64,000 nucleotides of DNA from Planctomycetaceae bacterium (GTDB lineage Bacteria > Planctomycetota > Planctomycetia > Planctomycetales > Planctomycetaceae). Within the stretch, counting starts at the first letter, position 1; every line of letters starts with the position of its first letter. Shown here in pieces: positions 259 to 12,203 of this stretch. A program made the position numbers and the translations under genes. The notes beneath the pieces were generated by a model. That model was not told where the DNA came from. It was given only the letters and a program-made list of their open reading frames with translations, and searched no databases. The stretch lies in contig WFTL01000152.1 of assembly GCA_015485495.1 (NCBI GenBank), positions 1 to 64,000 of the forward strand, written 5' to 3'.

Positions 259-1845
259 GTGCCTGTTCGCTTTCGTTCACACAAAAAGTCACGTGTCCGG
301 GAATCGTCCCGCGTCGACCAGGTGTCCGGCGGCGATCCGCAGGCAGTTGGAAACACGGTACGGTGGACGCCGCACCATCCGCGGACACCGATCCGTACAC
401 GCTGGTCGCTGGGAACGCAGCTTCTGTTTGCTGTGAACGGACTTTGCGCGATTTTCGTCGTTCTGTTCCACCTGGACGACTACCGCCAGGCCATGCGACA
501 GCAGATGGCGGAAAAGCAGATCGCTCTGCATGAAGAAGCCATCACGATTCTTTCGGCAGTTCCTGAAATCGAGATGCTCGGAAGCAGCGCTCTCCAGCGA
601 TTCATCGATCGGGCATGTGCTCAGATGAATGCAGCGCATTCTCCGGGACACCACATCGCTCTGATTTCCGAAGGACAGACGTTTCAGGCCGCGTCCCATT
701 CGCGGCAGTCCGACCAGCTGATCCGGAAGATGCGTGAAGCCACTGAACGATCCGGCGGGTACGGGCAGTTCCGCGAGCGCCCTTTCATTGTGGGAGCTTC
801 CCGCCGGAAGAGACAGTCGGTTCTGGTCATGGAATTCATAGACGATCTTCAGGCTCAGGTGCTGCAGGACAGTCTGCGCCGCTTCGGCGGATCTGCTCTT
901 CTGGCAGTGGCTGCTGCCGTCATCGTCAATGTGGTGATGGTCCGGATCGTCGTCCGCCCGGTCAGCCGCCTGGTCCGGGTCGTTCGCCAGATCCGCGACG
1001 GGACTTTCGGGGAACAGGTGAACGGCTTCCGCAGCCGCGAACTCCATGAACTGTCTCAGGCTGTCAATCAGATGAGCGAAACCCTGGCAGAAGCAGAACG
1101 TCAGCGACGCATGCAGATGGCCCGGGCGCGCCGCATCCAGCAGAATCTTCTGCCGCCGACTCCGAAACTGCCCGATGCGTCGATGGTCGTCCATTTCGAA
1201 CCGGCAGATGATGTGGCCGGCGACTTCTATGACGTGCAGTTTCTCTCTGACGGAGGATGGGTTGTCTTCCTGGCCGACGTGACCGGACATGGAATTCCGG
1301 CCGCTATGAATGCGACGCTGCTGAAGGCCTGGCTGGCGGAAGCCTGTGAGCATCAGAGCGGTCCGGTGGAAATCATGCGGCATATCAACCGTCGGTTCAC
1401 GGAACAGACGCTGCCGGGAGATCTGGCAACGGCGGTGCTGATTCGCCGCCTTCCTTCCGGCGGACCACTGCAGATCGTCAATGCCGGCCATGACGCGGGA
1501 CTGCTCCGGACAGCCGAAGGCCGGCTCACAGCCTGTCCTCCCACAGGCCTGCTTCTGGGAGTGGATGAAACGGCCGACTGGTCGGTGCAGACAGTTTCGG
1601 TGTCGCCGGGAGACCGCCTTCTTCTGTTCACCGATGGTGTGACAGAAACATTTTCCGCGGACCACACCATGTTCGGGCGGGAGCGTCTGGAAGCGGCTTT
1701 TGCTGAAACAGCCGACCGGGATCTGTCGGATACCGTGGGGTGTCTGATCCGGGAGGTCAGAGCGTTTCGCGGAACAGCAGAACAGAAGGATGACATCACA
1801 GTCATCGCGTTGGAATTCCGTGAAACCGGGAGGCACTCAGTATGA
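259..1845 (+). CDS. Membrane HAMP-PP2C (SpoIIE/RsbU-type) serine phosphatase
   Basis: Likely a membrane-bound phosphatase that removes phosphate from a Ser/Thr-phosphorylated partner, as RsbU does on anti-anti-sigma factors. Two hydrophobic segments (about residues 53-70 and 208-232) flank an extracytoplasmic sensor of about 130 residues. A HAMP linker follows (about 230-285), then a PP2C/SpoIIE catalytic domain. The acidic metal-binding motifs are visible: [21 protein letters not shown] near 460 and the terminal DDITVI. The start shown is GTG; the first about 45 residues are Arg/Pro-rich and the true start may be a later GTG. The stop overlaps the copper ATPase start by 4 bases (ATGA), so the two are probably co-translated. 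The partner protein is not visible here. Family assignment is firm, the sensed signal unknown. Confidence 0.85.
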
Positions 1846-4277
1846 ACGGGCACTCGAACGAAAACTCTCCGGACACCGGCACGAATCCCGCCGGGACAGA
1901 AACAGAAGACGTGATCGATCCGGTCTGCGGGATGAAGATCGATCGGCGAACAGCCCGCATGCTGATGCATGAAGGGCAGCCCTGGTGGTTCTGCAGTGAA
2001 TCATGCGAGAAGACGTTTCTCAGTGATCCGACCGCCGTTCTGAAAAAAGACGGGAGCCCGGACAGTTCCGGCCTTCGCCGTCGGTCGCCGGTGCAGGATC
2101 CACACAGCCAGGGACCGCCGGATGCTCATCAGACCACATCACCTGATGACGGCGTGTATACCTGTCCGATGCATCCGGAAATCGAACAGGCCGGCCCCGG
2201 CATCTGTCCGATCTGCGGAATGGATCTGGAACCCAAATCGGTTTCTTCGTCTGAACCGGACGATGACCGACAGCTGAAAGACATGACGCGCCGCTTTCAG
2301 GTGGCCGTCGCGCTGAGTCTTCCGCTGCTGATCATGACGATGGTTCCTGCGCCCGGCCGGCTGTCGGGCGTTCGGCTGCCGGCTGGTGCCAGTGGCCTGG
2401 TTCAGCTTCTTCTGGCAACACCGGTGGTTTTCTGGTCCGGCCACCCTCTGCTGGTGCGGGGACTGCATTCGTTTCGGACGTTTCGTCTGAACATGTTTTC
2501 TCTGATCACTGTGGGCACTCTGGCCGCGTGGATGTTCAGCGTTTTCGTTGTGCTGTTTCCAGGAGCGATTCCCGAAGCGTTTCTGGAAGACGGCCGGCCG
2601 CCTCTTTATTTCGAAGCAGCGGCTGTCATCGTGACCCTCGTGCTGCTGGGACAGGTTCTGGAACTGCGGGCCAGACAGAGAACCAGCGGAGCCATTCGCG
2701 AGCTGATGAAGCTGGCACCGGAAACTGCCCACCGGCTGACAGAAGACGGTGAACACCAGGTGCCAGTTTCGGAAGTGCGTTCCGGAGATCGTCTGCGGGT
2801 GCGGCCGGGAGAAAAAATTCCGGTGGACGGCCGTGTGATCAGCGGCGGCAGCCGCGTGGATGAATCGATGCTCACCGGCGAACCGGTGCCCGTCAAAAAG
2901 GCGCCGGGTGATCTGGTCACCGGCGGAACGCTCAATCAGACAGGTGCACTGGAAATCGAAGCGACCAGCGTCGGCAGCGAAACGGTTCTCAGCCGTATCG
3001 TGCAGATGGTTGCAGCCGCTCAGCGCAGCCAGGCCCCGATTCAGAGGCTCGTGGACGTTGTTTCCCGCTATTTTGTCCCTTCCGTCATCGCCTGCGCCCT
3101 GCTGGCTTTTCTGGGATGGGCCGTTGTGGGACCGGAACCACGGCTGGCACATGCCTTCGTTTCTGCCGTGGCGGTTCTGATCATCGCCTGTCCCTGTGCC
3201 CTGGGACTGGCCACCCCCATGTCGGTCATGGTCGGCGTCGGACGAGGTGCCCGGGAAGGAGTCCTGATTCGCGACGCCGAAGTCCTGGAAGTCATGGAGA
3301 AGGTCGACGTGATCGTTGTGGACAAGACGGGAACCCTGACGGTCGGCCATCCGGAAGTCACGGACATGAGAACCTTCTCCGGATGGTCTGAAGAAGACGT
3401 GTATCGACTGGCGGCGGCCGCTGAAGCATCCAGCGAACATCCCCTCGCCCAGGCCGTTGTCCGAAAGGCTCAGTCGCTTTCCGTGACTTTCGGACCGGTG
3501 CAGGATTTCAACAGCGTGACCGGCAGCGGTGTCACGGGCACGGTGGCAGGACACAGTGTTCTGGTGGGAAAACCGGACCTGCTGCGGCAGCGCGGAGTGC
3601 AGGGACTGGATGAAGCGGAACAGACCGTCAGCGAGTATCGGCAGTCCGGCCGGACAGCCATCCTTGTGGCAGTGGACGGACAGACGGTGGCGGTGATCGG
3701 CATTTCCGACCCGGTCAGACAGAGCACACCGGAGGCATTGCGCACCCTGCACGAACTCGGACTGAAAGTCGTGATGCTCACCGGCGATGCGGAGCGAACG
3801 GCCAGAGTTGTTGCGGACTCTCTGGGAATCGATGAATTCCATGCGGAGGTGTCTCCTCAGGACAAACATGACTTCGTGGCCGGACTGAAACGTCAGGGGC
3901 ATGTCGTTGCTATGGCCGGTGACGGCATCAACGATGCGCCGGCTCTGGCGGAAGCGGATGTGGGCATCGCCATGGGCACCGGCACGGGCGTGGCCATCGA
4001 ATCCGCCGGAATCACGCTGGTCGGCGGGGATCTGCGGGGCGTGGCGGCGGCCTGTCTGCTGAGTCGAAAGACGATGGCCAATATCCGTCAGAACCTGTTT
4101 TTCGCCTTCATCTACAACGCTCTGGGAATCCCCGTGGCAGCCGGGGTGCTCTATCCGCTGTCCGGAACACTTCTGAGCCCCATGCTGGCAGCGGCAGCCA
4201 TGAGTCTGAGCAGCGTGTCTGTGATTGCCAATGCCCTGCGGCTGAAACGGGTGCCTCTCGTGCGTAACGGAACGTGA
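1842..4277 (+). CDS. copA: Copper-type P1B ATPase with N-terminal YHS and heavy-metal-binding domains
   Basis: ATP-driven export of Cu(I), or a related soft metal, across the inner membrane. From the N-terminus: a YHS module (DPVCGM at 26-31, C51 and C55), a heavy-metal-binding domain (CPMHPE and CPICGM, about 108-127), then the P-type core. The core has the CPC membrane metal site (450-452), TGE loop (346-348), phosphorylated Asp in DKTGT (D494), the SEHP motif of P1B pumps and the GDGINDAP hinge. There is no classical GMTCxxC domain, so the YHS/HMBD pair replaces the usual metal-binding head. Its 811 residues are normal for the family. It overlaps the upstream phosphatase by 4 bases, with GGGAGG about 8 bases before the ATG. 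Copper is the best guess; silver or another metal is possible. Confidence 0.93.
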
Positions 4278-4367: not shown

Positions 4368-5234
4368 ATGACAACAGTTTGCCCTGGCATCCTGCGGACC
4401 GGACACATTGCCGCAGGGCTGGCCGGCTGTGCCCTGGCCCTCACCATGCCGCAGGCTCCGGCTCAGCCGACACCAGCAGCCGCTGAGGACCGTGAAGATC
4501 TTCAGGAACAGCTTGAGACGCTGCAGCAGCGCCTGGAACAGCTCGAAGCGGCACTGGAACAGCGCCGACCGAAATCGACCGGCACTTCCGAGTCGGCTGC
4601 TGCCGACCTGAATGGCGGCGGAATGATGAAAGACCGCAGGATGCGCAACCGTCCCCGGAAGGGCATGCGCATGATGAAAAAGAAGATGATGATGGGAGAA
4701 CAGTCGGAAACCCAGGGGGACGGCATGTCGAACGGGACAATGGGACGTATGAAAATGGGCCCGATGATGATGGGCCGGATGAAGAAGGCCGGGACGACCG
4801 GAGCCCGTTCAGATTCTTTCGACTCGTCGCTTCCCGGATTCCCCGGAGCATCTCACATCTACCACGTGGGCTCCACAGGCTTTTTCCTTGATCACACAGA
4901 ACACATCACGCTCACGTCCGATCAGCAGAAACAACTCAACAGGATTCGCGAGGAAACCCTGCTGTCTCAGGCCACGTTCGATCGCTGGATCGACGAAGCG
5001 GAACAGCAACTGTGGGTTCTGACAAGTTCTGATCGGCCGGATGCTGCCGAAATCAGAACACGAGTCATGGAAATCGCGAAGCTCGAGGCTGAAAAACGAC
5101 TGGCTTTTATCGAAGCGGTCGGACGGGCAGCCGGCGTTCTTACAGAGAATCAAAGAAACATCCTGACCGGACTTCATTCGGCAGAACAGACGTCTGTTTC
5201 AGAAGACCCGGATTCACCCGGGACGGCTCCCTGA
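4368..5234 (+). CDS. Exported Met-rich Spy/CpxP-like metal-stress protein
   Basis: Probable periplasmic metal-binding or chaperone-like protein. The N-terminus has a short hydrophobic export signal with a possible lipobox (LAGC, 18-21). Residues 40-67 are a Glu/Gln/Leu coiled coil. Residues 86-138 hold 17 Met in 53 positions, mixed with Lys/Arg/Gly, a composition typical of Cu(I)-binding segments. The C-terminal half (about 175-272) is helical and carries two LTxxQ-type motifs (LTSDQ, LTENQ), the hallmark of Spy/CpxP/CnrX proteins. It starts 90 bases after copA with AAAGGAAA before the ATG, so it belongs to the copper group. Family call rests on composition and motif; the bound metal is inferred. 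Confidence 0.75.
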   Translation: MTTVCPGILRTGHIAAGLAGCALALTMPQAPAQPTPAAAEDREDLQEQLETLQQRLEQLEAALEQRRPKSTGTSESAAADLNGGGMMKDRRMRNRPRKGMRMMKKKMMMGEQSETQGDGMSNGTMGRMKMGPMMMGRMKKAGTTGARSDSFDSSLPGFPGASHIYHVGSTGFFLDHTEHITLTSDQQKQLNRIREETLLSQATFDRWIDEAEQQLWVLTSSDRPDAAEIRTRVMEIAKLEAEKRLAFIEAVGRAAGVLTENQRNILTGLHSAEQTSVSEDPDSPGTAP

Positions 5235-5447: not shown

Positions 5448-6071
5448 ATGACGTTTCCACCAGCTCGAATGATCACTGCAGCAGGGCTGTTCCTGTTTCT
5501 GGGTGCTCTGGCGATCCCTCTGTCCGCCGCGGACGGACACAAACACGACGGGCATGACCACGGACACGGAGTGTCTGAGAAAAAAATCTCGGCTGCTCTG
5601 AACAAACTGTCTCCGAAAGACAGAGAACTGGCGCGTGCCCAGCGTTTCTGCCCGATGATGCCGCGGACACGTCTGGGATCGGACGGAACTCCTCAGAAAG
5701 TTCTGATTGACGGCAAACCGGTCTTCGTCTGCTGCGAAGACTGTGTTCCTGAAGCAAAAGAAGACGGCCGCCGCACTCTGTCGGCGGTGCGCAAACTGAC
5801 TCGGGCGGCCGCCACGCTGGCGAAGCTGCCGCCCGACCAGCGGGCCGACGCGGAAACTCAGAAATTCTGTGCTGTCAACACGAACAGTCTGCTGGGAAGC
5901 ATGGGAACACCGGTCCGCATGACTCTGAAAGGACAGACGGTTCTCCTGTGCTGCCGTGGCTGCGTGAAGAAAGCTCAGTCTCGTCCCGATGCCACACTGG
6001 CCCGTGTTGCCAGACTTCGCAAAGAAGCAGAACACGGTGACCACCATCATGGCGATCACGACCACGACTGA
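5448..6071 (+). CDS. Exported His-tailed protein with two Cys metal-binding modules
   Basis: Likely periplasmic metal-binding protein. A signal peptide (about 1-27) ends at AADG. A His/Asp-rich stretch follows (31-40), and another forms the C-terminal tail (196-207). Between them are two copies of a module of about 55 residues (about 55-110 and 127-182), each with a leading Cys (C68, C141) and a CCxxC group (95-99, 168-172) after a GTPxxxxxxGxxV strand. The arrangement recalls YHS/TRASH-type metal modules but is not identical to any I can name. A good AAGGA ribosome site precedes the ATG. It lies in the copper block and may buffer or deliver metal; that role is inferred. Confidence 0.72.
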   Translation: MTFPPARMITAAGLFLFLGALAIPLSAADGHKHDGHDHGHGVSEKKISAALNKLSPKDRELARAQRFCPMMPRTRLGSDGTPQKVLIDGKPVFVCCEDCVPEAKEDGRRTLSAVRKLTRAAATLAKLPPDQRADAETQKFCAVNTNSLLGSMGTPVRMTLKGQTVLLCCRGCVKKAQSRPDATLARVARLRKEAEHGDHHHGDHDHD

Positions 6072-6163: not shown

Positions 6164-6246
6164 GTTTCATCCGGATCCCCTGCAGCCTGTGCGCTCGTCC
6201 GGTCCGGCATCCGGATTCCTTTCTCCTGCAGCCTGAAAGAAACGTG

Positions 6247-7581
6247 ATGACAGACGATCTTTTCTCTGAAGCAGTCCGCAGGCTTGATCGGGCCGCAGAA
6301 TATGCCCGCATCGATTCGGAAGCCCTGCTTCGACTCAGTTCTCCCAGAGCTGTTCTGGAAGTGTCGATTCCTGTCCGCATGGACGACGGATCTCTTCAGG
6401 TGTTTCGCGGATACCGCGTTCGTCACGATGACACCCGTGGCCCGACGAAAGGAGGCATCCGATTTCACCCCGATGTGAATCTTTCCGAAGTCAAGGCACT
6501 GGCCTTCTGGATGACGTGCAAGTGTGCAGTGGCGGGAATTCCGTTCGGCGGCGCCAAAGGGGGAGTGGTCGTCGACCCGAAGTCGCTTTCCCGGCTGGAA
6601 CTGGAACGGCTCAGCCGGGGATACGTTCAGGCCATCGCCGATTTCATCGGACCGGAAACCGACGTGCCGGCGCCCGATGTGTACACCAATGCCATGATCA
6701 TGGGCTGGATGATGGATGAGTATTCCGTCATCCGTCGCCGACGGATGCCCGATGTGATCACGGGAAAACCAATACCGCTCGGCGGCAGCCTCGGCCGTGA
6801 CGACGCAACAGGACGCGGAGCCTACAACTGCATTCGGGAACTCCAGCGAATTCGTGGCTGGAACCCGACGGATCTGCGCGTGGCCGTTCAGGGATTTGGC
6901 AACGCCGGCCAGCACGTCGCCCGGCTGCTGGCCGAAGACGGCTGTCGCATCGTAGCCATCAGTGATTCGCGCGGAGGCATTCTGCGAGAAAACGGAATCG
7001 ATATTCCCTGCGCCATCCGGCACAAGAATTCCGGCCAGAGTGTCTACAGCGAACAGTCTGTGTGCGGCTGCCCGGTCTGCGGAGAAGCAGACTGTCACTG
7101 TGACGAAGGCCCCCTCTCCGGCAGCACACTCATCTCCAACGAAGAACTCCTGGAACTCGACGTCGATCTGCTGATCCCGGCGGCGATGGAAAACCAGATC
7201 ACATCAGAAAACGCACCGCGCATTCGTGCCCCGGTCATCGTGGAGGTGGCCAACGGACCGATCACTCCGGATGCCGACGACATTCTGTCCAGCCGCGGAA
7301 CTCTGATCGTTCCGGATATTCTGGCGAATGCCGGAGGCGTCACGGTGAGCTACTTCGAATGGGTGCAGAATCGGACCGGCGACTACTGGTCGACCGACAC
7401 CGTTCGCTCGCGACTGCAGGAAATCATGTCCCGGGAATTCCATGCCGTCTACGACCGCATGACGGAACAGAGCATCGATATGAGAACGGCTGCCTATGCG
7501 CATGCTGTCTCGCGACTGGGAGAAGCGATCGCCTGTCAGGGGACCAGTCACTACTTTTCCGCATCGCCTGTCCATTCATGA
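6247..7581 (+). CDS. gdhA: Glutamate dehydrogenase (Glu/Leu/Phe/Val dehydrogenase family) with Cys-rich insertion
   Basis: Catalyses reversible oxidative deamination of glutamate to 2-oxoglutarate with NAD(P). The dimerisation/catalytic half carries the substrate Lys in TKGGIRF and the catalytic Lys in GGAKGG (about 104). The Rossmann half shows the GFGNAG dinucleotide motif (about 217-222), and the C-terminal part has the PDILANAGGVTVSYFEW signature. The length (444) is slightly above the usual about 425 because of roughly 20 extra residues at 266-293 with five Cys (CGCPVC, then CHC), just before SNEELLELD. GTG at 6244 is directly followed by ATG at 6247, which I prefer. Substrate could be another amino acid, but the closest resemblance is to hexameric glutamate dehydrogenases. 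Confidence 0.92.
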   Translation: MTDDLFSEAVRRLDRAAEYARIDSEALLRLSSPRAVLEVSIPVRMDDGSLQVFRGYRVRHDDTRGPTKGGIRFHPDVNLSEVKALAFWMTCKCAVAGIPFGGAKGGVVVDPKSLSRLELERLSRGYVQAIADFIGPETDVPAPDVYTNAMIMGWMMDEYSVIRRRRMPDVITGKPIPLGGSLGRDDATGRGAYNCIRELQRIRGWNPTDLRVAVQGFGNAGQHVARLLAEDGCRIVAISDSRGGILRENGIDIPCAIRHKNSGQSVYSEQSVCGCPVCGEADCHCDEGPLSGSTLISNEELLELDVDLLIPAAMENQITSENAPRIRAPVIVEVANGPITPDADDILSSRGTLIVPDILANAGGVTVSYFEWVQNRTGDYWSTDTVRSRLQEIMSREFHAVYDRMTEQSIDMRTAAYAHAVSRLGEAIACQGTSHYFSASPVHS

Positions 7582-7606: not shown

Positions 7607-9619
7607 ATGAATACCTGGCTCCTTCTCATGACAGGCTTTCTCTGGCAATGCCCGCCGGCCCTGCTGTCCGTCCAGGCAACCACTGACGGGCACGCCGCCC
7701 ACCACGGAGGACAGTCCGCTCCGCCGACTGCGGACAGCCGACAGGACAACGGCGGCATGATGAAAGGCGGCATGATGAAAGGCGGCATGATGAAAGGCGG
7801 CATGATGAAAGGCGGCATGATGAAAGGCGGCATGGGGAAGATGATGGAGCAGATGGGAGCTCCAAAACCAAAGGAGACCTGGCCGCGTCTCATGGAACTG
7901 CCCGATCTGCCTCCGGAAAAACGCGCTGAAATTCAGACAGAAGCTCATGAACGAATGATCGAAGGCGTGCGGCTGATGAGTGACGCCCTGGAGCGGCTGA
8001 CAGCAGCCGCTGCGCGGCAACAGTTCGCTGCAATGCAGGAAGCGACGGCCACTGTTCGCGAAGGCCTGGAACGCTTCGACAGCGGCCTGTCCGCACATCG
8101 GGCCATCGCTGAAGGACAGGCGCCGCGGAATACCGCACTTCACTGGTTCCGAAAACAGATGGACCTGCTGCCACCACCGCCACCCTCGCAGACCTGGCAT
8201 GTGTTCGGCATGTCGCCGTTTCATACGCTGGTCATGGTGCTTCTCACGGTGTTCGCCGTGGCCGTGATCTGGATGTATTACTTCAAAATGAAACGGGCCG
8301 CTGCCCTTCTCGAATCGTTCGCCGCAGTCCGAAACAGTCCGCCGGACGCCCCGTTGGCTGCCGCCGATCAGCCCTCCGACCGTTCGCCGCAGCCTGCTGC
8401 CGTCGCTGCTTCGGTCCCGCCGGTCTCAGCGCTGCCGGTTCCCGGTGCCGGAGACTCGACGGCTGAAGCAGACTCCAGCCGGAATTCCTCGGATCCTCCT
8501 GGCTCCCCCTGCTGCTCCGACACGGAAGAAACCTGTCCGGATGAAGCGGACAATTCCGGCGGCCTTCTTCCGGTCTCCCGCCGAAAGCTGTGCCGCCTGA
8601 AAGTCGCAAGGATCGTTCAGGAAACGCCGGACGTGAAAACCTTCCGGCTTGTGGCCTGTCACGGAAGCGGCCTTCCGTTCAGTTATCTGCCCGGACAGTT
8701 TCTGACACTCACTTTGCCGGTGGGCGAAAAACCCATTCGCCGCAGTTATACAATTTCGTCATCTCCGACACAGGGCTGCTACTGTGAAATCACCGTCAAG
8801 CGAGAAGAACACGGGCTCGGTTCCCGATGGCTGCATGACCATGTGCAGCCAGGCGACCTGCTCGACGTCCGGGCCCCCAGCGGCAAATTCTTTTTTACCG
8901 GAACCGAAAGCGACAGCGTGGTGCTCATCGGCGGCGGTGTGGGAATCACCCCCATGATGAGCATTGTGAGAGCTCTGACAGACATGTGCTGGGAAGGAGA
9001 CATCTGGATGATCGTCGCCTGCCGCGACCCTGATCATTTCATTTTCCAGGCAGAACTGAATCGACTCAGCCAGGAATACGCCAATCTTCATCTGCATGCA
9101 GCGATGAGTCGAATCGACCGCGATCAGGGCATCTGCCGCCGCGGACGACTCAGCCGTGACATGCTGAAGGAATGGGTGCCCGACATTGCCTCCCGCCGCA
9201 TCCATCTGTGTGGCGCACCGCCGATGATGGAAAGCACCCGCGCCCTTCTGGAGGAACTCCATGTGCCTCCGGAAAACATTTTTACAGAGAATTTCGGTTC
9301 CACCAGGAAACCCGACAGAACAAAAAAACAGCCGCCTGCTGCGGCTGTTCCGGAAACCGGGGCCCAGGTGACTTTCGCTGCTTCCGGAAAGACGGCTGTG
9401 CTGCAGTCCGGGGAGACCATTCTGGAAGCCGCCGAACGAATCGGAGTGGACATCTCTTATTCCTGTCGCGTCGGAACCTGCGGCGAATGCGCCGTGCGGC
9501 TGCTGAAAGGAGATGTCACTATGGAAGAAGATGCCGGGCTGGATCCGGAAGATCGCGAAGCCGGCAGGATCCTGGCCTGCCAGGCCCGCTGCAGCAGCCC
9601 CGTCACGGTGGATGCATGA
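7607..9619 (+). CDS. Membrane-anchored FAD/NAD(P)/2Fe-2S reductase with Met-repeat exported domain
   Basis: Probable NAD(P)H-fed electron entry protein of a transmembrane redox chain. Order over 670 residues: export signal (1-22); HAAHH; five exact MMKGG repeats (51-75) and more Met to 83; a helical domain (about 100-185); one membrane helix (206-225); a Pro/Ala/Ser linker (242-320); a ferredoxin-reductase module with the FAD motif RRSYTIS (378-384), the nucleotide loop GGGVGITP (442-449) and CGAP (535-538); a C-terminal plant-type 2Fe-2S domain with C620, C625, C628 and C658. The order flavin, NAD, 2Fe-2S matches phthalate-dioxygenase-type reductases. The Met domain would face the periplasm and the reductase the cytoplasm. 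The ATG at 7607 is chosen because it begins the signal peptide; a longer frame from 7496 overlaps the dehydrogenase. The next gene starts 17 bases after the stop. Confidence 0.85.
   Translation: MNTWLLLMTGFLWQCPPALLSVQATTDGHAAHHGGQSAPPTADSRQDNGGMMKGGMMKGGMMKGGMMKGGMMKGGMGKMMEQMGAPKPKETWPRLMELPDLPPEKRAEIQTEAHERMIEGVRLMSDALERLTAAAARQQFAAMQEATATVREGLERFDSGLSAHRAIAEGQAPRNTALHWFRKQMDLLPPPPPSQTWHVFGMSPFHTLVMVLLTVFAVAVIWMYYFKMKRAAALLESFAAVRNSPPDAPLAAADQPSDRSPQPAAVAASVPPVSALPVPGAGDSTAEADSSRNSSDPPGSPCCSDTEETCPDEADNSGGLLPVSRRKLCRLKVARIVQETPDVKTFRLVACHGSGLPFSYLPGQFLTLTLPVGEKPIRRSYTISSSPTQGCYCEITVKREEHGLGSRWLHDHVQPGDLLDVRAPSGKFFFTGTESDSVVLIGGGVGITPMMSIVRALTDMCWEGDIWMIVACRDPDHFIFQAELNRLSQEYANLHLHAAMSRIDRDQGICRRGRLSRDMLKEWVPDIASRRIHLCGAPPMMESTRALLEELHVPPENIFTENFGSTRKPDRTKKQPPAAAVPETGAQVTFAASGKTAVLQSGETILEAAERIGVDISYSCRVGTCGECAVRLLKGDVTMEEDAGLDPEDREAGRILACQARCSSPVTVDA
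7751..7840 (+). repeat. 15-bp coding minisatellite (MMKGG repeat)
   Basis: Five exact tandem copies of GGCGGCATGATGAAA (7751-7825) and a sixth diverged copy (7826-7840), in frame inside the reductase gene. Identity at the nucleotide level points to recent slippage expansion. Confidence 0.97.
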
Positions 9620-9635
9620 ATTCCGGGGTCGGCCG

Positions 9636-11252
9636 ATGAAAGAACGTGAGCGAATCATTGTGACGGGCCTGGTGGTCCTGCTGCTGGTGCTGTGGCTGGG
9701 ATTCGTGTTCCACCGTTCTCCGGATTTCGCCGGCAGCCTCACCGGAGGCATTCTGGCCGTGGCCGGTGCGCTGCTGATGACCATTCCTCTGGCCTACCTG
9801 TTCGTCAAGCGGATCCCCGGACTCCGATCGCGTCTGAAACCTTACGTCTCCATGCGGACGCTTCTGTCCTGGCATATCTATGCGGGAATCCTCGGACCGA
9901 TTCTGGTCATCCTGCATACGGGACACAAATTCGAAAGCCCGCTGGGCATCGCCCTGACACTCATGACTCTCGTGGTGGTCTTCAGCGGATTCGCGGGACG
10001 GTACCTGATGAGCCATTTCTCATCGGAGATTCGGGAGAAGAAAACACTTCTGAAAGAACTCCATGCCGTCCGCGACCGGATGATCCGGCATCTGGCAGGA
10101 CATCCGCATCAGGCAGAGGCTGTGCGGCCTTTTTCAGGAATTCTTTCCCGGATGGCTGCCGGACTGATACAGGAACCTCGTGGCATGGCCGCGGACATCG
10201 ACGCCCCTGTCACACCGATCATGGTGGTCCGGCTGGCCGAATCCATCGCCGACGTGGAATACGCCATCGAAACGCATCAGACGTTTCGTCGATGGTTCGG
10301 AACCTGGCTGAAATGGCACATTGCCGTTTCCGCCCTGCTTTACGTTCTGATGATTCTGCACGTGTGGGCGGCCGTTCATTTCGGGCTGCGATGGTTCAAA
10401 GCACCAACAACCGACCATTTTCGCAGCACGGATCCACTGGCCGCGGCACCTGCAGATGCGTCCTTCGGAACAGAACCCCATTCGACGGCCGTGCAGGACT
10501 TTCACAGGGCGTTCGGCCGGCTGTTTGAAAGCACCTGGCGGCCGCCTGCACGAATCAACGGCATTTCCACAACCGTGTTCAACTATGCCGAATGGGCGCG
10601 TCAGGCCCGAAAAGAGCAATCGGACTTTCAGAAGGCCGTGGCTGCTTTGAAACGCGTGCAGCCTGGCGATCTGAATGGCGGAGACCGGGAAAAGATATTC
10701 TGGATCAACGTCTACAACTTCACCGCGATGAAGCTGGCCGCGGAAAACTACCCGGTCGATTCCATCACCAGCAGAAAAATCAGCCTGACAGGGAACCCCT
10801 GGTCTCTGAAGACAGTGACGGTTGGAAACCGATCGTATTCACTCAGACAGATCGAAACAGACATGCTGCTGTCCCGATTCAACGATCCGAGGATCGTGTT
10901 TGCCGTGAGCTGTGCGGCCGTCAGCTGCCCGGACCGTCCCAGCCGCCTGTTCACAGCAGATGCGGCAGATTCGCAGCTGGACTCACTTGTGGACACATTC
11001 TTTCAGAATCGCAGTAAGGGACTGCGTCTGGATACCAACAGCCGCACTCTGACCGTCTCCTGGATCCTGAAGGCAGATCGACCGTTGTTCGGTTCCGGTG
11101 ATGACGGAGTGCTGCAGTTTATCATTCGTTACGCACCGCCAGACATCGCCGCCTGGCTTCGCCGTCACGGCGACGATGTTCGAATGACGTACTTCGAACA
11201 TGACTGGAGCCTGAATGATGTGGCTCTCACAACGGACGAGGCATCTGAATGA
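9636..11252 (+). CDS. Bis-heme b-like membrane protein fused to DUF547
   Basis: Probable transmembrane electron carrier. Four hydrophobic helices lie in the first 252 residues (about 8-25, 34-56, 77-97 with 104-120, and 226-250). Two helices each carry a His pair spaced H-X13-H (H80/H94 and H228/H242), the geometry that holds two stacked b hemes in ferric reductase and NADPH oxidase domains. From about 285 to the end is a DUF547 domain, with FWINVYN (355-361), the SCAAVSCP motif (425-432) and the terminal HDWSLN. ATG 9636 follows the reductase stop by 17 bases; ATG 9612 is an alternative that would overlap it. The stop overlaps the cytochrome start by 4 bases. Heme binding is inferred from His spacing; the role of DUF547 is unknown. 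Confidence 0.8.
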   Translation: MKERERIIVTGLVVLLLVLWLGFVFHRSPDFAGSLTGGILAVAGALLMTIPLAYLFVKRIPGLRSRLKPYVSMRTLLSWHIYAGILGPILVILHTGHKFESPLGIALTLMTLVVVFSGFAGRYLMSHFSSEIREKKTLLKELHAVRDRMIRHLAGHPHQAEAVRPFSGILSRMAAGLIQEPRGMAADIDAPVTPIMVVRLAESIADVEYAIETHQTFRRWFGTWLKWHIAVSALLYVLMILHVWAAVHFGLRWFKAPTTDHFRSTDPLAAAPADASFGTEPHSTAVQDFHRAFGRLFESTWRPPARINGISTTVFNYAEWARQARKEQSDFQKAVAALKRVQPGDLNGGDREKIFWINVYNFTAMKLAAENYPVDSITSRKISLTGNPWSLKTVTVGNRSYSLRQIETDMLLSRFNDPRIVFAVSCAAVSCPDRPSRLFTADAADSQLDSLVDTFFQNRSKGLRLDTNSRTLTVSWILKADRPLFGSGDDGVLQFIIRYAPPDIAAWLRRHGDDVRMTYFEHDWSLNDVALTTDEASE

Positions 11253-12052
11253 GTCGTTCCGGCAGATACATTTCAGCATCTGCAGCCCTGGGAACGGCTG
11301 CAGTCCTCTGGTGGCTCACACCGGGAAAGGCAGTCCTTTTTCAGGCAGCCACCTGGCAGAAAATGGCACAGCCGGGCGCATTGTCGTCCGTGCATGCGCA
11401 CCTGGAAAATCGTTGCGCATCGTGCCATACGCCGGCTCGCGGAGTGAGGCCGGAATCCTGTATCGCCTGTCATGCCGGCAGTGAATCGCTCCTCCAGCGG
11501 GGAACAACGTCGTTCCATGCCGGTATCAGCAGCTGTACAGAGTGTCATCCGGAACATCGGGGACGCCATCAGCATCCCACCCGAATGGACCATACTGCTC
11601 TGACTCACATCGGACTGCGGCAGCTTCGCAGTCATGACGTTCCAGACAGTGAAAGCCGGCAGCTTGCCAGACGGCTCCGTGAATGGATCCGGCGCAGCGC
11701 AGCGGATCCCGAAGCTGTGCCCCACACGAGGATCACTCCTGGAGAATTCGTCCTGAACTGCCGCAGATGTCATGCATCCGAGGATCGTCATCTCGGACTG
11801 TTCGGAAGCGACTGTGCGGAATGTCATGCCACAGACCGATGGAGGGTCCCGGAATTCCGGCATCCTCCGGCTTCATCCACAGACTGCGCTCAGTGCCACC
11901 AGGCACCACCGAGCCACTACATGATGCATTTTCGCATGATTTCCGCGCGGGTCGCGGGCAAACCTCATGCCCGTGTCGGGCAGTGTCATTTGTGTCACCG
12001 CACGACATCCTGGAACGACATCCGCGGAACCGGGTGGTACAAACATCACTGA
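11249..12052 (+). CDS. Membrane-anchored seven-heme cytochrome c
   Basis: Periplasmic multiheme electron carrier. An N-terminal hydrophobic segment (about 7-24) without a clear cleavage site probably anchors it. Seven CXXCH heme motifs occur at 56-60, 71-75, 96-100, 171-175, 189-193, 213-217 and 246-250, and many extra His could be distal ligands. The gap between motifs 3 and 4 (about 70 residues) splits the protein into a three-heme and a four-heme part. It resembles cytochrome c3/c7-type families in spacing. It starts inside the stop of the bis-heme/DUF547 gene (ATGA), so it is translationally coupled and is the likely terminal acceptor of that chain. Its own acceptor is not identifiable. 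Confidence 0.88.
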   Translation: MSRSGRYISASAALGTAAVLWWLTPGKAVLFQAATWQKMAQPGALSSVHAHLENRCASCHTPARGVRPESCIACHAGSESLLQRGTTSFHAGISSCTECHPEHRGRHQHPTRMDHTALTHIGLRQLRSHDVPDSESRQLARRLREWIRRSAADPEAVPHTRITPGEFVLNCRRCHASEDRHLGLFGSDCAECHATDRWRVPEFRHPPASSTDCAQCHQAPPSHYMMHFRMISARVAGKPHARVGQCHLCHRTTSWNDIRGTGWYKHH

Positions 12053-12125: not shown

Positions 12126-12129
12126 ATAG

Positions 12130-12203
12130 TAGCGGTGGAGGGACTCGAACCCCCGACACGCGGATTATGATTCCGCTGCTCTAACCAACTGAGCTACACC
12201 GCC
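12130..12203 (-). tRNA. tRNA-Met (anticodon CAT)
   Basis: A 74-base cloverleaf on the minus strand. The acceptor stem is GGCGGTG/CACCGCT with a G-T first pair, the D arm is GCTC...GAGC, the anticodon stem is GCGGA/TCCGC with loop ATCATAA (anticodon CAT), and the T arm has TTCGAGT. The discriminator is A and CCA is not encoded. The body matches elongator Met tRNA; a CAT-reading Ile tRNA cannot be wholly excluded by eye. Confidence 0.95.

Follow-up and report, generated by a model that had tools for sequence, protein, structure and literature searches.

Three adjacent genes in a Planctomycetaceae genome, lying beside genes for copper resistance, encode a reductase, a membrane heme protein and a multiheme cytochrome c. 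The question is whether their products form one chain that carries electrons from cytoplasmic NAD(P)H to periplasmic hemes, as the preliminary description of this DNA proposed, and what such a chain would do in this place. The window analysed here is the whole stretch of 64,000 nucleotides in which the genes lie. Our results suggest that the trio is one transmembrane electron exporter with a role in metal stress, a reading to which we give a probability of roughly 0.65 from sequence evidence, and this figure excludes the terminal acceptor.

The three genes and their products

A reductase with a membrane anchor, a membrane protein with two H-X13-H pairs and a cytochrome with seven CXXCH motifs had been reported from this place, and all three genes were confirmed there. 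Their features, in window positions, are the following.

7607..9619, + strand: P1, an exported or membrane-anchored FAD/NAD(P)H/2Fe-2S reductase of 670 aa (Pfam and NCBIfam domains; kept in related loci)
7751..7834, + strand: Met-rich tandem repeat of P1, a 15-bp unit repeated 5.6 times that encodes GGMMK; candidate copper-binding stretch
7859..8206, + strand: predicted periplasmic helical domain of P1, distantly like Spy/LTXXQ protein (hhalign, 87.6% probability against a Spy-like family)
8228..8284, + strand: single transmembrane (TM) helix of P1, residues 208-226, N-out/C-in by the positive-inside rule
8600..9592, + strand: FAD_binding_6, NAD_binding_1 and Fer2 domains of P1 (Pfam), in the order of phthalate dioxygenase reductase
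9636..11252, + strand: P2, a membrane bis-heme b protein with a C-terminal DUF547, 538 aa (domains, conservation and model)
9636..10406, + strand: membrane domain of P2, residues 1-257, with five TM helices and the ligands H80/H94 (TM3) and H228/H242 (TM5)
10689..11000, + strand: DUF547 domain of P2, periplasmic by topology, accessory (Pfam, E 6e-15)
11249..12052, + strand: P3, a heptaheme cytochrome c of 267 aa with seven CXXCH (Pfam Cytochrom_c3_2 match)

P1 and P2 are separated by 16 bases (9620-9635), which corrects the 17 bases first given, and the overlap of P2 and P3 is four bases, as had been noted. This spacing suggests that the three genes are co-transcribed. A tRNA-Met gene is located at 12129-12203, 76 bases downstream of P3, and may be an island boundary; the local GC (0.59 vs 0.61) is not distinctive.

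The N-terminus of P1 is signal-peptide-like, and the units of its 15-bp repeat are exact. The TM helix is strong, and positive charges lie on its C-terminal side, followed by the FAD domain.

In P2, the two H-X13-H pairs (H80-X13-H94 on TM3 and H228-X13-H242 on TM5) had been recognized correctly, but the DUF547 domain in the C-terminal half had been overlooked. The preliminary description had made its proposal depend on the conservation of these pairs, and we found that all four histidines are invariant in 61 P2 sequences, as are H26 and H97. When 11 sequences that include the distant planctomycete relatives were compared, only the four ligand residues stayed invariant among the histidines. 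DUF547 is fused to P2 in only 16 of 80 related loci, and its fusion state shows at least eight changes on the P2 tree. The AlphaFold model of P2 is good (pLDDT 85.8).

The four canonical heme histidines, in pairs on TM3 and TM5, are those of the ferric reductase domain (FRD)/NOX superfamily. The membrane part of P2 has no match to a Pfam family, and PF01794 gave no match to P2 at E 0.1 and none in its own genome. In the comparison with VIA-align 2, the best-ranked solved structure was SpNOX (Z 9.9, 16% identity and an rmsd of 3.7 over 121 residues), with a Z that helical bundles can reach by chance; b6f, b561 and NOX5 ranked below it, among unrelated helical proteins. A Foldseek search of the full P2 model against the PDB returned nothing significant, with SpNOX in the top three at E 1.1, and PDB sequence searches with the P2 and P3 profiles gave nothing convincing. 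Profile comparison (hhalign) with long ferric reductases reached 85% for the wider P2 family and 17% for P2 alone. Cytochrome b561 and DUF4405, considered as the family of P2, were rejected because their profiles did not match (0.1-9%, hhalign). Together, the profile and fold comparisons hint weakly that the membrane part of P2 has the ferric-reductase/NADPH-oxidase fold. We therefore describe P2 as probably working like a split ferric reductase/NOX, with the P1 helix in the place of TM6, but refrain from assigning it to the superfamily.

P3 carries multiple CXXCH motifs together with conserved distal histidines, as a multiheme cytochrome c does. Seven CXXCH were found in the P3 of 75 of 77 loci, and one of the two exceptions is a truncated contig. 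At L023:9435-10250 the seventh motif reads CXXCN, the sole such exception seen. An alignment of 51 sequences, whose rows were picked among proteins with seven CXXCH and not for any other histidine, contains exactly seven invariant histidines besides those of the motifs. As seven CXXCH go together with seven other invariant histidines, it suggests that P3 holds seven bis-His hemes and is an electron carrier rather than a protein with a catalytic heme. The structure model of P3 is poor (pLDDT 63).

Distribution, mobility and distant relatives

Recurrence of the trio in other genomes was another point on which the preliminary description had rested its proposal. Among 59 relatives searched, four other genomes showed P1, P2 and P3 in synteny. 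When 84,980 species genomes were searched by pattern, 174 encoding stretches emerged, and the best 80 of the 174 were made into loci. These best 80 span about ten phyla, among them Planctomycetota, Verrucomicrobiota, Nitrospirota, Nitrospinota, Pseudomonadota (Legionella, Methylocaldum, Methyloversatilis) and Hydrogenedentota. In all of them where the contig allows, the order P1, P2, P3 on one strand is kept, and the P1-P2 gap is 30 bases or less in 69 of 77 loci. Since order and strand are kept in all informative related loci, the arrangement is not due to chance.

Among 294 planctomycete genomes, strong P2 matches were found in six, and strong P3 matches in the same six and on one contig-edge fragment. 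The P2 tree intermixes phyla, with single placements unsure because many of its rows are metagenome bins, and P2 is present on 52 plasmid records, 26 of them typed as conjugative. The mixing of phyla and the plasmid records indicate that the trio is an accessory, mobile system. It occurs in Planctomycetota as well as in Legionella, Sphingomonadales and Alteromonas, also on conjugative plasmids, and existing annotation calls its genes no more than 'hypothetical', '2Fe-2S' and 'cytochrome c3'.

Several loci showed peculiarities of their own. In Planctomycetes bacterium TBK1r, P2 and P3 are separated by an inserted transposase-like ORF (L047:8906-10369). On a Legionella anisa plasmid, P2 is interrupted in frame (L119:11998-12760), and P1 and P3 are open, with P1 annotated short. 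A canonical long-form ferric reductase/NOX-like protein directly follows the trio at L046:9666-11138 and L049:9631-11103.

Distant relatives carry other dehydrogenases. In planctomycete genomes, some proteins combine in one chain a P2-like bis-heme b domain with 4Fe-4S and Pyr_redox_3 domains, and they are followed by 23-26-heme cytochromes. Fusion proteins of this kind at L120:6528-8774, L121:3466-5763, L122 and L129 apparently form an unnamed electron-export family. In other planctomycetes (L026-L028), a P2-like cytochrome b precedes a 10-heme cytochrome and large genes that resemble NuoEF and GltD by eye. In several forms, then, a cytosolic dehydrogenase is found together with a putative bis-heme b conduit and a multiheme c protein, which lends support to the proposed electron direction.

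Copper neighbourhood and the possible role of the proposed electron route

Upstream of the trio, the window contains the following genes.

1842..4277, + strand: CopA-type metal P-ATPase with YHS and HMBD domains (Pfam)
4368..5234, + strand: Met-rich Spy/LTXXQ-like exported protein, a conserved partner upstream of the trio
5448..6071, + strand: His-rich exported protein with homologues in other trio loci
6244..7581, + strand: glutamate dehydrogenase (GDH) directly upstream of P1, with a 25-base gap; possible source of NAD(P)H

The copper genes noted earlier at this locus proved to be a feature of many genomes. Among 58 long loci (13 kb or longer; 51 of them non-Legionella), 40 carry one or more genes of copper type, which here means CopA, multicopper oxidase, CsoR, efflux or TRASH-type genes, and 18 have none in reach. 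The commonest copper neighbour is a multicopper oxidase (29/58); CopA was found in 13, CsoR in 11 and an outer-membrane efflux protein in 11, and a Spy-like gene is present in 42 of the 58. Ten trio genomes hold only 12 multicopper oxidases, and five of these lie within about 8 kb of a trio, against 0.03 expected; we rely on this contrast rather than on the P-value, whose calculation takes the positions to be independent. The plasmid copies of Variovorax, Sphingomonas, Methylophaga, Spirosoma and Alteromonas lie amid copper-resistance genes, and such surroundings are not obvious on the Legionella anisa plasmid. For the Alteromonas plasmid family, a connection with resistance to metals, copper among them, has been reported for whole strains (PMC4781885). 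Non-copper neighbours include GDH (22/58) and an AMPK-beta-like gene (18/58).

In Legionella loci L083-L085, L088, L093, L098 and L112, an ATP synthase gene cluster (N-type, by our reading) lies immediately upstream of the trio. Glucose-6-phosphate dehydrogenase genes, with gnd, lie near the trio at L115:23545-24735, L023 and L025 and may be a local supply of NAD(P)H. We rejected a porin-cytochrome conduit, as no porin was seen among the genes that recur beside the trio.

We propose that P1, anchored by its one TM helix, takes electrons from cytoplasmic NAD(P)H through FAD and then probably the [2Fe-2S] domain, and that P2 passes the electrons across the membrane via two stacked b hemes on TM3 and TM5. 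The periplasmic P3, probably with all hemes bis-His ligated, would take the electrons and hand them on. In mechanism the trio would resemble a ferric reductase/NADPH oxidase in which a separate protein bears the dehydrogenase and the last helix, and in which a dedicated multiheme cytochrome is the outer acceptor. The direction of the electrons and the formation of a complex by P1, P2 and P3 are presumed here. Such a route from NAD(P)H to the periplasm is likely, and conservation, topology, the invariance of the heme ligands and the natural fusions in distant relatives back the single route proposed earlier. The trio travels with the Spy-like Met-rich protein in copper-tolerance islands, and its most likely job would be to provide the periplasm with reducing power when copper stresses the cell. 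A job in copper tolerance is plausible.

As the terminal acceptor, Cu(II), reduced to Cu(I) for Met-rich carriers, is our first guess, a tentative one at odds clearly below even. It is opposed by the greater toxicity of the product Cu(I) and by the neighbouring multicopper oxidases, which would undo the reaction. The next guess keeps the same exporter and replaces the metal with the repair or protection of periplasmic proteins, as in MsrPQ, for example of oxidised Met in the Spy-like protein or by removal of peroxide. The Met-rich Spy-like partner in 42 of the 51 long non-Legionella loci and the related domain within P1 speak for such an outlet, and the seven probable bis-His hemes suggest a carrier that needs a partner. 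However, neither MsrP nor a peroxidase nor another dedicated acceptor enzyme was found among the recurring neighbours, and we regard reductive repair as somewhat unlikely. The metal specificity may also be wrong, because 18 of the 58 long loci are without a copper-type gene and the Alteromonas trio lies beside a hydrogenase. The trio could instead be a general stress or redox-balancing module that happens to ride on mobile islands with metal resistance genes, and the GDH and AMPK-beta-like neighbours and the ATP synthase genes in Legionella agree with this. That the copper link is merely incidental is nevertheless unlikely, given the excess of multicopper oxidases close to the trio and the Met-rich and Spy-like parts built into P1 itself.

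Electrons could also run the other way, from a periplasmic donor such as H2 (via the HynSL hydrogenase) through P3 to NAD(P)+. On Alteromonas pAM1A3 the trio lies directly upstream of the hydrogenase cluster, and P2 and P3 match its orf1 and cyt by gene order (PMC3102683); in tblastn, the P2 query was about 38% identical over 97% of its length. However, hydrogenase activity in E. coli was reported to reach its maximum without orf1 and cyt (PMC3102683), and no hydrogenase was found in the other plasmid loci examined, so a reverse chain is very unlikely. The least probable reading is a NOX-like one, in which O2 is reduced to superoxide at the outer heme or the electrons pass to a neighbouring multicopper oxidase that consumes O2. 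The fold similarity of P2 to SpNOX and the frequency of multicopper oxidases in the long loci agree with it. Zhang et al. noted that NOX2 carries a signature extra histidine, His-119, at +4 from the outer TM3 heme ligand (PMC3591440). The invariant H97 near the outer heme recalls this residue, but it stands at +3, and the histidine at +4 is absent from P2. Moreover, the gene for a dedicated heptaheme protein is present in every case, and copper stress would be made worse by superoxide.

If the trio does export electrons under copper stress, copper-resistance islands hold an overlooked, energy-using arm that sends NAD(P)H electrons to the periplasm, beside copper pumping and oxidation.

Comparison with known systems

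The preliminary description knew of no system with this exact set, and we likewise found no description of the trio as a system in the open-licence literature, including that on copper transcriptomics and multiheme cupric reductases; novelty is not thereby proven. The sole prior mention found is that of 'orf1' and 'cyt' beside the Alteromonas hynSL hydrogenase (PMC3102683), where they appear as accessory ORFs only, without P1 or a function in an electron chain. It is possible, at odds a little short of even, that the trio represents widespread plasmid-borne split NOX-like exporters, with a heme domain unmatched by Pfam and a heptaheme outlet, that draw on NAD(P)H to supply the periplasm of copper-stressed bacteria with dedicated reducing power and are part of a larger unnamed family coupling varied cytosolic dehydrogenases to 7-26-heme cytochromes. 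The trio would in that case point to a family of bis-heme b conduits as the joining element.

The cytosolic part of P1 has the flavin-NAD-Fer2 order of the phthalate dioxygenase reductase type, and differs from that type in an N-terminus that is exported, Met-rich and membrane anchored. MsrPQ (YedYZ) likewise has a membrane heme b protein that serves a periplasmic partner. In YedZ, an Arg replaces the first heme histidine (PMC3591440), whereas P2 retains all four, with H80 invariant in the 61 sequences, and an MsrP-like enzyme was not seen beside P2. The flavinylation-linked transmembrane electron transfer systems (eLife 2021, PMC8238504) combine a cytosolic donor, a membrane conduit and an extracytosolic acceptor, as the trio appears to do. 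The passages of that article consulted here do not describe the trio, whose acceptor, as a point of difference, is a heptaheme c protein.

The closest likeness is to the ferric reductase domain superfamily (FRE/NOX, SpNOX; Zhang et al. 2013, PMC3591440), which shares the histidine pairs on TM3 and TM5, the stacked hemes and a cytosolic FAD/NAD(P) dehydrogenase. P2 differs in lying below the detection of PF01794. The FAD/NAD dehydrogenase, which is part of the same chain in the long form of FRD/NOX, is encoded in the related loci by the separate gene P1, so that this part and the last helix belong to a second protein. The trio differs further in its extra [2Fe-2S] domain and its dedicated heptaheme protein.
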